DNA from: an uncultured Acetobacteraceae bacterium
GTDB lineage: Bacteria; Pseudomonadota; Alphaproteobacteria; Acetobacterales; Acetobacteraceae
DNA: 38,504 nucleotides
Direction: 5' to 3'
NCBI GenBank assembly: GCA_903895595.1
Contig: CAITUP010000001.1
Coordinates: 1 to 38,504, forward strand
Position 1 is the first letter of the stretch. Each line of letters starts with the position of its first letter. This document shows positions 16,850 to 26,551 of the stretch, piece after piece. The translations under genes and the position numbers were made by a program. The notes below the pieces were generated by a model. That model did not search any database. It worked only from the letters and a program-made list of their open reading frames with translations, and had not been told where the DNA came from.

Positions 16850-16931
16850 CGCTCCTCGGCCGCGCCGGGAATGTCGCACCATTGACGCGCATCCCGTCAT
16901 CCCTTACCCCTTTCCTCACCGGCCCAGCCGG

Positions 16932-16989
16932 TCCTCGTGATTTGTCCGGCCGGATTGCGGCGAGGTGAAACAAGCGCGCTAAAGAGGCC
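16932..16989 (+). promoter_or_regulatory. SAM-II riboswitch upstream of metZ
   Basis: The layout of the SAM-II aptamer is complete. P1 is CCTCG (16933-16937) with CGAGG (16961-16965), immediately followed by the conserved loop TGATTTG (16938-16944). A small optional hairpin TCCGGCCGGA follows, then ATTGC, TGAAACAA, and the conserved 3' element GCTAAAGAGG (16978-16987) that closes the pseudoknot. SAM-II switches are found mostly in alphaproteobacteria before methionine and SAM biosynthesis genes, which fits metZ 70 nt downstream. Binding of SAM would lower expression. A TTGACG at 16882-16887 may be the -35 box of the promoter. Confidence 0.92.
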
Positions 16990-17057
16990 AGCGTCAGGTC
17001 CGTATCCACGGGCCGAGGCTGCTCGACGGTCGGTCCATCGTGAGAAGGACCCACTTC

Positions 17058-23667: not shown

Positions 23668-24777
23668 TCAGAACACGACGACGGAGCGGATCGACTCGCC
23701 ACGGCGCATGAGGTCGAAGCCTTCATTGATCTGCTCGAACGGCAGGACGTGGGTGATCAGGCTGTCGATGTCGATCTTCTTGTCCATGTACCAATCGACG
23801 ATGCGCGGCACATCCGTCCGCCCGCGAGCGCCGCCGAACGCCGTGCCCATCCAGGTGCGGCCCGTCACCAGTTGGAACGGACGCGTGGAAATTTCCTGCC
23901 CCGCACCGGCCACGCCGATGATGATGGATTTGCCCCAGCCGCGATGCGCGCATTCCAGCGCCTGACGCATCACATGCGTGTTGCCGATGCACTCGAAACT
24001 GTAATCGGCGCCGCCTTTGGTCAGGGCGACGAGGTAGGGGACCAGATCGCCCTCGACCTCACTCGGGTTGACGAAATGGGTCATGCCGAACTTGGTCGCC
24101 ATCGGAATGCGGCCGGGGTTGAGGTCCACGCCGACGATCATCTCCGCGCCCACCATGCGCAGGCCCTGGATAACGTTCAGGCCGATGCCGCCGAGGCCGA
24201 ACACCACGCAGCGGGCGCCGGCTTCGACTTTGGCCGTGTTCATCACCGCGCCGAGGCCGGTGGTGACCCCGCAGCCGATGTAGCAAACCTTATCGAACGG
24301 CGCGTCCTCGCGGATTTTCGCCAGCGCGATCTCCGGCAACACGGTGAAGTTGGAGAAGGTGGAGGTGCCCATGTAGTGGTACACGGGCGCCCCATCGCAG
24401 GAAAACCGGCTGGACCCGTCGGGCATGACCCCCCTGCCCTGCGTCGCGCGGATCGCCACACACAGGTTGGTTTTGCGGCTCAGGCAATATTCGCACTGGC
24501 GGCATTCCGGGGTGTAGAGCGGGATGACGTGGTCGCCCTTTTTCAGGGACGTGACGTTCTTGCCGACCTCGACCACCACGCCGGCGCCCTCATGCCCGAG
24601 AACGGCGGGAAACAACCCCTCGGGGTCGGCGCCGGACAGGGTGTATTCGTCGGTGTGGCAGATGCCGGTGGCCTTGATCTCCACCAGGACCTCGCCTTCG
24701 CGCGGTCCGCCGAGATCGATGGTTTCCAGGCTCAACGGCTTGCCAGCCCCTCGGGCAACGGCGGCTCGGGTTTTCAT
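23668..24777 (-). CDS. frmA: S-(hydroxymethyl)glutathione dehydrogenase / class III alcohol dehydrogenase
   Basis: A 369-residue zinc alcohol dehydrogenase of class III. It oxidises S-hydroxymethylglutathione with NAD for formaldehyde detoxification and also reduces S-nitrosoglutathione. The catalytic zinc ligands are Cys40 (GICHTDEYTLSG), His62/Glu63 (LGHEGAG) and Cys169 (GCGVTTG). The structural zinc is held by Cys92, Cys95, Cys98 and Cys106. The NAD fold has VFGLGGIGLNV. GADYSFECIGN and the terminal SIRSVVVF are typical of AdhC/FrmA. The start ATG at 24777 lies about 75 bp downstream of the terminator of sRNA copy A on the same strand. Confidence 0.95.
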   Translation of the reverse strand: MKTRAAVARGAGKPLSLETIDLGGPREGEVLVEIKATGICHTDEYTLSGADPEGLFPAVLGHEGAGVVVEVGKNVTSLKKGDHVIPLYTPECRQCEYCLSRKTNLCVAIRATQGRGVMPDGSSRFSCDGAPVYHYMGTSTFSNFTVLPEIALAKIREDAPFDKVCYIGCGVTTGLGAVMNTAKVEAGARCVVFGLGGIGLNVIQGLRMVGAEMIVGVDLNPGRIPMATKFGMTHFVNPSEVEGDLVPYLVALTKGGADYSFECIGNTHVMRQALECAHRGWGKSIIIGVAGAGQEISTRPFQLVTGRTWMGTAFGGARGRTDVPRIVDWYMDKKIDIDSLITHVLPFEQINEGFDLMRRGESIRSVVVF

Positions 24778-24852
24778 CGGGAGACTCCGGTAACGTGATC
24801 GGGCGGCAATGTGCGGGGCGTGGCGCGCGGGATCAAGGGGAGTCGTTCGGAC

Positions 24853-24885
24853 AAAAAAAGTGGCGGCGCCCCGAGGGGCACCGCC
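24853..24885 (-). terminator. Intrinsic terminator of sRNA copy A
   Basis: On the minus strand GGCGGTGCCC-CTCG-GGGCGCCGCC (10-bp stem with one G-U pair) is followed by AC and seven T. This is a canonical Rho-independent terminator, which would also isolate frmA downstream from sRNA transcription. Confidence 0.88.
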
Positions 24886-24936
24886 AAGTTTAGGGAGGAA
24901 ACGTCCAAGAAAGCAGCGCGCCTAAGCAACGCCGCT
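24853..24936 (-). ncRNA. Putative small RNA, copy A
   Basis: A predicted transcript of about 84 nt from A24936 to the T-run at 24853. Three hairpins can be drawn. The 5' stem pairs GCGGCG with CGCUGC. The middle one is GUUU-CCUCCCU-AAAC, whose loop is complementary to Shine-Dalgarno sequences. The third is the GC-rich terminator with a CUCG loop, followed by ACUUUUUUU. A promoter with 17-bp spacing precedes it, and a near-identical second copy lies upstream. The anti-SD loop recalls the CCUCC-type loops of alphaproteobacterial trans-acting sRNAs such as the alpha-r14 and CcsR families. Membership was not tested. Confidence 0.75.
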
Positions 24937-24942
24937 GGGAGG

Positions 24943-24990
24943 TTTATGCCACGGCGATCATAGGCATGCAAGTGAAATTGTGCGGCGCAC
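24943..24990 (-). promoter_or_regulatory. Promoter and upstream palindrome of sRNA copy A
   Basis: On the minus strand TTGCAT (24966-24971) and CATAAA (24943-24948) are 17 bp apart, a sigma70-like arrangement. The palindrome GTGCGGCGCAC (24980-24990) is 8 bp upstream of the -35 box, centred near -49. The same three elements with the same spacing occur before copy B. Confidence 0.6.
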
Positions 24991-25025
24991 CAAAAATACT
25001 TTTTCACGATGAAAGGGTTTTGAGC

Positions 25026-25058
25026 AAAAAAAGTGGCGGCACCCCGAAGGGTACCGCC
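25026..25058 (-). terminator. Intrinsic terminator of sRNA copy B
   Basis: On the minus strand GGCGGTACCC-TTCG-GGGTGCCGCC is followed by AC and seven T. The UUCG loop makes it very stable. It separates copy B from the copy A promoter. Confidence 0.88.
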
Positions 25059-25109
25059 AAGTTTAGGGAGGAAACGTCCAAGAAAGCAGCGCGCCTAAGC
25101 AGCGCCGCT
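25026..25109 (-). ncRNA. Putative small RNA, copy B
   Basis: A predicted transcript of about 84 nt from A25109 to the T-run at 25026. It has the same three-hairpin layout as copy A: a 5' stem of GCGGCGC with GCGCUGC (one pair longer), GUUU-CCUCCCU-AAAC with the anti-SD loop unchanged, and a terminator closed by a UUCG tetraloop. Compared with copy A the terminator stem has a G-C pair replaced by A-U, a compensatory change. The loop sequence is identical in both copies, which suggests selection on RNA structure and on the pairing loop. Confidence 0.75.
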
Positions 25110-25116
25110 GAAGGAG

Positions 25117-25164
25117 TATATAAACCGCCAATCATGGGTATGCAAGCGAGATTGTGCGGCGCAC
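25117..25164 (-). promoter_or_regulatory. Promoter and upstream palindrome of sRNA copy B
   Basis: On the minus strand TTGCAT (25140-25145) and TATATA (25117-25122) are 17 bp apart. The -10 box is closer to consensus than that of copy A, so copy B may be the stronger gene. GTGCGGCGCAC (25154-25164) sits 8 bp upstream of the -35 box, as in copy A. Confidence 0.65.
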
Positions 25165-25201
25165 CAAAATATTTTTTTCAATCTTTAGTTGCGCCCAGGG
25201 A

Positions 25202-25492
25202 TTAGCGGGTGCCGCCGCCGAGCGTCCGCCAATACAGCATGGTGCAGGCGATGCCGGTGGGCATATGCGGGTATTGATCCTGCGCGACCGCATTGGCGAT
25301 GGTGCCGCGCGAGACGCCCTGGAGGAGTTGCCCCAGCAACAGCTCCGGCGAGCCGGCCGGGCGCTGCACTGCCGTTTTGCGCAACATGATGTGTTCCAGC
25401 GCATCGCAGGGGCTGCCCGTGCCCTCGCCGACCAATGGATAGGCATAGAACCCGGCGGCGAGCAGCACGATCACCCACAGCAGCGTTTTCAT
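25202..25492 (-). CDS. Small exported or membrane-anchored protein of unknown function
   Basis: A 96-residue protein with a hydrophobic N-terminus (MKTLLWVIVLLAAGFYAYPLVG) that could be a signal peptide or anchor. A soluble part with two cysteines follows (SPCDALEHIML and GIACTMLYWRTLGGGTR), perhaps forming a disulfide. I do not recognise the family. It lies 9 bp after the mutY stop on the same strand, so it is likely read from the mutY transcript. The twin sRNA genes follow on that strand. Confidence 0.72.
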   Translation of the reverse strand: MKTLLWVIVLLAAGFYAYPLVGEGTGSPCDALEHIMLRKTAVQRPAGSPELLLGQLLQGVSRGTIANAVAQDQYPHMPTGIACTMLYWRTLGGGTR

Positions 25493-25501
25493 GGCGGACT
25501 C

Positions 25502-26551
25502 CTATGCTATGGCGACCTTAACGCATTTCCGCATGACCGAGGGTAGTGCCATGCGGTCCAGATCGGCGATGGGATGCGCGAAGCCCTCCCCGGTCAGGCC
25601 GAGGACCTCGGCTGCGAAGAGGTCGATATAGAGCTCGAAATGGGTGAACCCGTGGCGGATTTGGCCGGCGGGCCGCCAGTCCGCTTGCGCGGGGGCGTGG
25701 GGCATGGCTTGGGCTTCGGTCCACGGTTCCTCCCGCCAGGGGGTGCCCGGCAGCTCGGTCATGCCGCCGAGCAGGCCGGAGGATGGGCGGCGGCGGAGGA
25801 GGATGTGGCCGGCGGGGTCGGTCAGCCAGAAATGCACGCCATAGCGTACGGGGCGGGTCTTTTTCGGGGCTTTGCGCGGTAGCGTGGCGGCGATGCCCCG
25901 GCGGCGGCCGGCGCAATTGTCGGTCCAGGGGCACACGCCGCAAGCGGGCGATGTCGGGGTGCACAAAGTGGCGCCGAGATCGAACAGGGCTTGGGCGAAA
26001 TCGCTGGGCCTCGCTTGGGCGTCCGGGTCGGCGCCGAGGGTTTCGGCGGCGGCGCGCATCGCGGGCTTGGAAGCGGGTAACGGGGTTTCGATGGCGAAGA
26101 CGCGGGACGTGACGCGTTCCACATTGCCGTCGACGGGGACGGTGGGGATACCGAAGGCGATGGCCCCGATCGCCGAGGCGGTGTAGGCGCCGATACCCGG
26201 CAGGGCCAGCAAACCGGCCAAATCTTGGGGAAATCCGCCCATCGCGGCCACCGCCTTTGCGCAAGCATACAGATTGCGGGCGCGGGCGTAGTAGCCAAGA
26301 CCGGCCCAGAGGGACAAAACGTCGTCCAACGGTGCCGCGGCCAGCGCTTCGACCGTCGGGAAGCGGCTTACGAAGCGTTCATAGTAAGGTATGACCGCCG
26401 TCACGGTGGTCTGCTGTAGCATGATCTCGCTGAGCCAGACCCGGTATGGATCCATCGTCTGCCCAGGCGGCGCACGCCAGGGCATGGAACGGCGGTGGCG
26501 GTCGTACCAACGCAGGAGCGACTCGGCCGGGGCAACGACGGATGACGACAT
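25502..26551 (-). CDS. mutY: A/G-specific adenine DNA glycosylase
   Basis: A 349-residue MutY, which removes adenine mispaired with 8-oxoguanine. It has the catalytic Glu42 region (WLSEIMLQQTTV), the helix-hairpin-helix LLALPGIGAYTASAI, and catalytic Asp141 in PVDGNVERV. The [4Fe-4S] cluster is Cys197-x6-Cys204-x2-Cys207-x5-Cys213. The C-terminal Nudix-like domain for 8-oxoG recognition (RRRPSSGLLGGMTELPGTPW) is complete. The ATG at 26549-26551 overlaps, back to back, the ATG of the divergent dciA-like gene within one CATG. AGGCGG on the minus strand is a plausible ribosome-binding site and lies inside the opposing gene. Confidence 0.95.
   Translation of the reverse strand: MSSSVVAPAESLLRWYDRHRRSMPWRAPPGQTMDPYRVWLSEIMLQQTTVTAVIPYYERFVSRFPTVEALAAAPLDDVLSLWAGLGYYARARNLYACAKAVAAMGGFPQDLAGLLALPGIGAYTASAIGAIAFGIPTVPVDGNVERVTSRVFAIETPLPASKPAMRAAAETLGADPDAQARPSDFAQALFDLGATLCTPTSPACGVCPWTDNCAGRRRGIAATLPRKAPKKTRPVRYGVHFWLTDPAGHILLRRRPSSGLLGGMTELPGTPWREEPWTEAQAMPHAPAQADWRPAGQIRHGFTHFELYIDLFAAEVLGLTGEGFAHPIADLDRMALPSVMRKCVKVAIA

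Follow-up and report, generated by a model that had tools for sequence, protein, structure and literature searches.

Introduction

The closest described relatives of the locus reported here are the αR8 sRNAs, among them MmgR of S. meliloti and SisA-D of Caulobacter crescentus. According to the account of the Caulobacter RNAs, the core of SisA-D is the 10-mer UUUCCUCCCU, this core pairs with the 5' regions of mRNAs, and a purine-rich RNA complementary to it, CrfA, counteracts the Sis RNAs (PMC12559287). The same source describes a single αR8 copy adjoining an N-formylglutamate amidohydrolase (FGase) gene in most species, and several copies, some of them adjacent, in many genera (PMC12559287). 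In S. meliloti, loss or depletion of PhaR is reported to raise MmgR, and mmgR is listed both among PhaR-box promoters and among gel-shift fragments, its PhaR site being given as 13 nt away from the start (PMC12542648). A PhaR consensus, TGCRNYGCASMA, has been deduced in Bradyrhizobium (PMC6201568), and phasins are described as PhaR targets in both organisms (PMC12542648, PMC6201568).

We analysed a stretch of 38,504 nucleotides (the window) from an uncultured Acetobacteraceae bacterium (assembly GCA_903895595.1, contig CAITUP010000001.1; its genome is called G000 below). An initial annotation of this DNA had proposed twin sRNA genes with their own promoters and terminators between mutY and frmA, and had recognised no named family for them. 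Judged by sequence evidence, the pair is real and conserved and was correctly described there in all but its family.

A predicted tandem pair of αR8 sRNA genes

The two units lie on the minus strand and consist of 86-nt direct repeats, 95% identical at a spacing of 173 (24852-24937 and 25025-25110), preceded by 55-nt upstream direct repeats that are 82% identical at a spacing of 174 (24952-25006 and 25126-25180). The tandem arrangement is thus as first proposed, with the following features:

25502..26551, minus strand: mutY, flanking gene (Pfam HhH-GPD and NUDIX_4)
25117..25145 (25145-25117), minus strand: promoter-like TTGCAT-N17-TATATA, copy 1 (pattern match)
25026..25109, minus strand: αR8 (MmgR/SuhB, RF00519) sRNA copy 1, mutY-proximal, predicted 84 nt (RF00519, 51.3 bits over 25020-25094)
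25065..25074, minus strand: seed UUUCCUCCCU of copy 1, a 10-mer of anti-Shine-Dalgarno type (sequence; identical to the SisA-D core as given in PMC12559287)
25034..25059, minus strand: intrinsic terminator stem-loop, copy 1, UUCG loop, seven T (terminator scan; covariation)
24943..24971 (24971-24943), minus strand: promoter-like TTGCAT-N17-CATAAA, copy 2 (pattern match)
24853..24936, minus strand: αR8 (MmgR/SuhB, RF00519) sRNA copy 2, frmA-proximal, predicted 84 nt (RF00519, 51.1 bits over 24847-24921)
24892..24901, minus strand: 10-mer seed UUUCCUCCCU of copy 2 (sequence, exact)
24861..24886, minus strand: intrinsic terminator stem-loop, copy 2, CUCG loop, seven T (terminator scan; covariation)
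23668..24777, minus strand: frmA-like zinc alcohol/formaldehyde dehydrogenase, flanking gene (Pfam ADH_N and ADH_zinc_N)

The name frmA is that of the initial annotation; the Pfam matches support a zinc alcohol/formaldehyde dehydrogenase. Both the 84-nt length and the ends of the two sRNAs were derived from the promoter-like pair and the terminator. A 96-aa reading frame at 25202-25492 (minus strand), between mutY and the sRNA pair, had no Pfam match and no tblastn match in the mutY loci of relatives (L046-L074). Elsewhere in the window, a SAM_alpha riboswitch (RF00521, 63.5 bits) was found at 16924-17003 on the plus strand.

With regard to family, the initial annotation was mistaken. Both copies exceed the gathering cut-off (41 bits) of Rfam RF00519 (suhB, 'Makes More Granules Regulator RNA (mmgR)'), at 51.1 and 51.3 bits, and this is the sole Rfam match above a gathering score at the pair. 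None of the eight Rfam matches there up to E 1 is named αR15 or AbcR, although the release may hold no such model. The features of αR8 RNAs are present in both copies: a covariance score above 41 bits, the internal 10-mer UUUCCUCCCU, which agrees letter for letter with the SisA-D core, and a Rho-independent terminator. The pair does not adjoin an FGase gene, whereas a third copy in this genome, on contig C103, does; this adjacency is not strictly defining, since it is stated of most species and the extra Caulobacter siblings are located elsewhere. On these grounds both units are almost certainly αR8 sRNA genes. In the predicted fold, seed bases 3-5 (UCC) fall within a weak 3-pair hairpin and the other seed bases are unpaired.

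The two promoters with 17-bp spacing fared less well than the terminators. TTGCAT-N17-TATATA and TTGCAT-N17-CATAAA are indeed there, one in front of each copy, but a stricter sigma-70 scan (9/12 consensus bases) over 24780-25200 returned zero promoters, so both pairs are weak matches. The terminators were borne out: the two with a 4-nt loop have the longest stems (11 pairs) among four terminator-like sites in the scan (0.8 in shuffles). One stem pair is G-C in one copy and A-U in the other, as had been noted at the outset. If relatives had carried stems that do not covary, the structure would have been in doubt, but covariation was found in two alignments. In the first (28 αR8 sequences that we chose, three of them from the window's genome; 96 seed matches were listed), six of nine terminator stem pairs changed on both sides with pairing kept, against a shuffle mean of 2.4, with 0/500 shuffles reaching six and at most three such pairs in slid controls. 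In the second (13 units of the mutY-linked group), three of 24 pairs did so; shuffles averaged 0.6, and 5/500 of them came to three. Identities between tandem units were mixed when the relatedness of the copies was compared.

Distribution and synteny

RF00519 matches were found in 45 of 59 genomes, the window's own included, with more than one in most members of the genus. The window's genome has five, comprising the pair, the C103 copy and two below the cut-off; the C103 copy is canonical and sits beside the usual αR8 neighbour, the FGase gene (PF05013). The two below-cut-off sequences, L004 (G000:C144:10617-10698) and L005 (G000:C120:1536-1607), differ from it in their seeds (CACUCCCUCCCC and GACUCCUCCCC), and neither showed a PhaR-type box within the stretch examined.

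In the genus sample (33 genomes, own included), 30 mutY loci were examined. The unit had been expected between mutY and frmA in relatives, and this holds for part of the genus: an αR8 seed adjoins mutY in seven loci (G000, G008, G028, G015, G026, G010 and G002), whereas none was seen in the other 23, of which L074 is uninformative as its contig ends inside mutY. The location is therefore kept in a group of genomes and not family-wide. The order mutY-αR8-frmA is found on one stretch in four genomes (G000, G028, G015, G002) and is implied in G008 and G010, where frmA is on a second contig ending near an αR8 unit; in G026, frmA was not seen at the mutY-αR8 locus. The number of units seen beside mutY is one for G028 and G015 and two for both G000 and G002; G008, G026 and G010, with contigs that break within the αR8 array, have at least two each. 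When contigs were scanned for seed pairs at a distance of 158-188 bp, nine stretches came up, six labelled Acetobacteraceae or Rhodopila and three labelled Hyphomicrobiales or Xanthobacteraceae. Other tandem αR8 copies were seen elsewhere in same-genus genomes (L008 on G009:C4, L013, L081, L084, L087 and L088), and G009 has three copies in a row.

PhaR-type palindromes upstream of αR8 genes

Roughly 50 bp ahead of its inferred start, beyond the -35 element, each copy has a 15-bp palindrome:

25152..25166, no strand assigned: PhaR/AniA-type palindrome TTGTGCGGCGCACCA, upstream of copy 1 (pattern match)
24978..24992, no strand assigned: PhaR/AniA-type palindrome TTGTGCGGCGCACCA, upstream of copy 2 (pattern match)

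At both units TTGTGCGGCGCACCA fits TGCRNYGCASMA on both strands, and the symmetric form occurs at two sites in the window versus 0.01 expected. In the 5.46-Mb genome the symmetric palindrome TKSTGCRNYGCASMA has seven sites and its reversed-pattern control none. Two of the seven are at the pair, one is at the FGase-linked αR8 copy, one is upstream of a phasin gene (Phasin_2, PF09361), one is by proS, and one each is on C70 and C126. The last two (G000:C70:39697-39711 and G000:C126:10734-10748) are near a CoA-transferase/MaoC gene pair and a cupin gene, with no clear PHB link. Single matches to the looser TGCRNYGCASMA mean little, since it matches the genome 113 times and its control 55 times.

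Upstream DNA of 150 nt or more was available for 90 αR8 units; TGCRNYGCA was present in 64 of these upstream regions and absent in 26, and nine control windows had it in 1-6 of 82-87. The laxer YGCRNYGCR was upstream of 76 of the 90 (controls 6-19). PhaR itself is encoded in the window's genome, on C8 (PF07879 and PF05233). Taken together, the palindromes, the box in 64 of 90 units, the presence of PhaR and the link between PhaR and mmgR in S. meliloti make control of both αR8 copies by PhaR quite probable; we infer its binding at the pair and the sign of its effect. With these palindromes, the PhaR-mmgR link would reach beyond S. meliloti to a distant family, and to αR8 genes present in duplicate. 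The leader of the phasin gene held no full seed complement when checked by eye.

Seed complements at solute-binding-protein genes

In the window's genome, AGGGAGGAAA-N2-9-ATG occurs in three places, all of them at solute-binding-protein genes (PF00496 twice and PF13458), and its reversed control once. Across the 33 genus genomes, own included, there were 91 matches and five for the reversed control. We examined 87 of these sites (three at contig ends and one overlapping duplicate were left out), dropped ten with reading frames below 60 aa and Pfam-scanned the remaining 77, some of which may be false genes. Solute-binding proteins accounted for 18 of the 77 (11 Peripla_BP_6, five SBP_bac_5 and two TctC), and the other 59 were of mixed kinds. 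Of the genes behind other GGAGG-type sites, 3/55 were solute-binding when checked protein by protein (L004, L136, L275; Fisher p 0.004 against 18/77), in a small control set taken from loci fetched for other purposes, where 14 of 55 genes lacked a Pfam match at 1e-5 and may be false genes as well. In the 7-genome group the share was 8/17 (p 0.0002).

Solute-binding-protein genes could just favour strong Shine-Dalgarno sites, which may explain the excess. The excess supports, without proving, an uptake-limiting role resembling that of AbcR. That solute uptake is the main target class of these RNAs is about as probable as not.

A proS-linked element complementary to the seed

The extended seed complement AGTTTNGGGAGGAAA has four exact matches in the genome, of which three fall on strands opposite αR8 genes. 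The fourth (C93:13967) is in the interval that separates proS from a DUF1467 gene, with a PhaR palindrome 117 nt before it:

G000:C93:13829-14089 (L159:1830-2090), plus strand: proS-linked element (PhaR palindrome, putative promoter, 17-nt seed-region complement with one G-U)

By DNA search the region was recovered from 11 of 33 genus genomes, from one of them through the box stretch only, and a covariance model of the element matched in 52 of 200 family genomes. We examined 39 proS loci, comprising 30 of the 52 covariance matches and nine further loci of the genus. Because the core and the -10 region are part of the model, their conservation is partly due to how the loci were selected; TGAC and the PhaR box are outside the model. 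TGCRNYGCA was found 100-160 nt upstream in 39/39 loci (controls 0/155), the laxer box in 39/39 versus 30/155, and TGAC on the strand bearing the seed complement (the sponge strand) in 39/39. TGAC-N18-TA was present on that strand in 35/39 loci (0.45 expected from shuffles; 0-3 at other spacings), and the spacers are 32% alike. This constant-spacing pattern reads as a promoter for an anti-αR8 RNA in which the seed complement would be placed between two hairpins.

The odds that the proS-linked RNA is a sponge for αR8 RNAs are nonetheless about even, because the opposite strand resembles RF00519 and this weakens a simple sponge reading. It is just as probable that the element is a further αR8 gene on the proS-facing strand, with no sponge transcript from the other. 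In five of five other-genus loci scanned, the opposite strand scored 34.0-39.1 bits with RF00519 (cut-off 41), and a T-rich tail (at least 6 in 8 bases) was seen in 22 of 27 other-genus loci, with a promoter pattern in 10 of 27; in these genera the element could be an αR8 gene overlapped by an antisense promoter. If so, complementarity to the seed follows trivially. The seed-site duplexes are strong (mean -38.6 versus -12.9 kcal/mol for shuffled sites; -31.6 in this genome), as either reading predicts. With a laxer -10 the 17-nt spacing is also less distinct, with 33 loci at 17 nt, 17 at 18, 8 at 16 and 7-11 at 20-23 nt. Against a further αR8 gene are the 35 loci with TGAC-N18-TA and dissimilar spacers, and the state of the window's own genus, where the opposite strand has the promoter pattern in 0/12 loci and the T-rich tail in 1/12, but the promoter of the sponge strand, the PhaR box and the site are kept. 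In this genome's copy, moreover, Rfam gave nothing up to E 0.5. Of the two strands, the sponge strand has the more stable fold at 11 of the 12 genus loci and at 27 of 39 overall; no intrinsic terminator was noticed on it by eye.

One history that would fit these observations is that in Acetobacteraceae PhaR stands over both the αR8 sRNAs and an antisense-derived sponge at proS, each with a PhaR palindrome of its own, and that the genus lost the αR8 strand and kept the sponge; we offer this tentatively, as a possibility somewhat on the doubtful side. Should the proS-linked element prove to be a sponge, it would illustrate how such an RNA can evolve from the strand antisense to the very sRNA family that it controls, a process for which, to our knowledge, few natural intermediates are known. 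A PhaR-controlled αR8 sponge was not named among the matches listed in our literature searches.

Proposed function of the pair

The mechanism that we consider likely overall is a PhaR-tuned tandem αR8 pair that lowers translation of solute-binding proteins. Each copy would be transcribed from its own promoter and terminated at its own intrinsic terminator. PhaR (AniA), acting at the upstream palindrome, would sense the state of carbon storage (PHB). Both sRNAs would act in trans, presumably with Hfq, through pairing of the largely unpaired UUUCCUCCCU seed with Shine-Dalgarno regions and a resulting reduction in translation. Their chief targets would be the solute-binding proteins of transporters, and uptake would thereby be tuned to the PHB state. 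Several points count against this mechanism: the position of the box beyond the -35 element, unlike the mmgR site of S. meliloti, the promoter-like pairs that the stricter sigma-70 scan passed over, the 26 of 90 αR8 units without the strict box, the phasin leader that lacks the full seed complement, and the limits given above for the seed-complement matches. If the mechanism holds, the coupling of carbon storage to nutrient uptake by αR8 RNAs becomes a general statement that can be tested.

The palindrome might instead be bound by a regulator other than PhaR, or be a promoter feature, with αR8 expression unrelated to PHB. The PhaR link at the pair consists of consensus matches, two of the seven palindromes (C70 and C126) have no clear PHB link, and the Caulobacter siblings are described as having unrelated promoters (PMC12559287). 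However, a palindrome of the same form precedes a phasin gene, and genes of this kind are PhaR targets in both S. meliloti and Bradyrhizobium; mmgR is itself reported as a PhaR target in S. meliloti (PMC12542648). We regard this alternative as unlikely.

A local role, in which the pair regulates frmA or formaldehyde/glutathione metabolism, would find a parallel in the CcsR RNAs, reported to modulate C1 metabolism in Rhodobacter (PMC10253847), and would suit the mutY-αR8-frmA order of four genomes and, by implication, two more. We rate it as very improbable because the frmA leader has no seed complement, the pattern marking three other genes, and because most genus members lack αR8 at mutY: 23 of 30 mutY loci (L074 uninformative) have no adjoining seed, and genus members have αR8 copies elsewhere. 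That the units are inert duplicated DNA or an assembly artefact is the least credible explanation, to the point of being nearly negligible. The contigs of G008, G026 and G010 do end inside the αR8 array, but the RNA body is conserved with compensatory changes, PhaR-type boxes are present, and at least one copy is at the same mutY location in seven genomes.

Comparison with known systems

As a further instance of a known sRNA family the pair is unremarkable; its regulatory context is more out of the ordinary. The αR8 family and its adjacent copies were already known, and tandem αR8 genes are a known arrangement since adjacent copies are in print; a literature search for tandem SuhB in Acetobacter returned no papers. 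What is new are the PhaR boxes, the seed complements at solute-binding-protein genes and the proS-linked element.

Among clustered sRNAs, the CcsR (cuckoo) RNAs are CU-rich. Those of Rhodobacter, CcsR1-4, are homologous and clustered, as the units are here, but are described as co-transcribed with a DUF1127 gene and processed (PMC10253847), whereas each copy here has its own promoter-like pair and terminator. AbcR1 and AbcR2 (αR15) are likewise tandem sRNAs with anti-Shine-Dalgarno motifs and act on ABC transporter mRNAs; they are reported to form a different family with partial RF00519 homology (PMC7143759), and the pair passes only the RF00519 gathering score.

MmgR is like the pair in its family, its terminator, its 10-mer core and the PhaR/AniA site at its promoter (PMC7143759, PMC12559287, PMC12542648). 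It is described as single-copy in S. meliloti, however, whereas here there is a tandem pair with a third copy, and the box is upstream of the -35 element. SisA-D share the 10-mer core and the presence of several siblings (PMC12559287), but the Sis genes are described as dispersed, with unrelated promoters, and the two adjacent copies here have a promoter type and a box in common. CrfA and the candidate proS-linked sponge are alike in being complementary to the αR8 core (PMC12559287).
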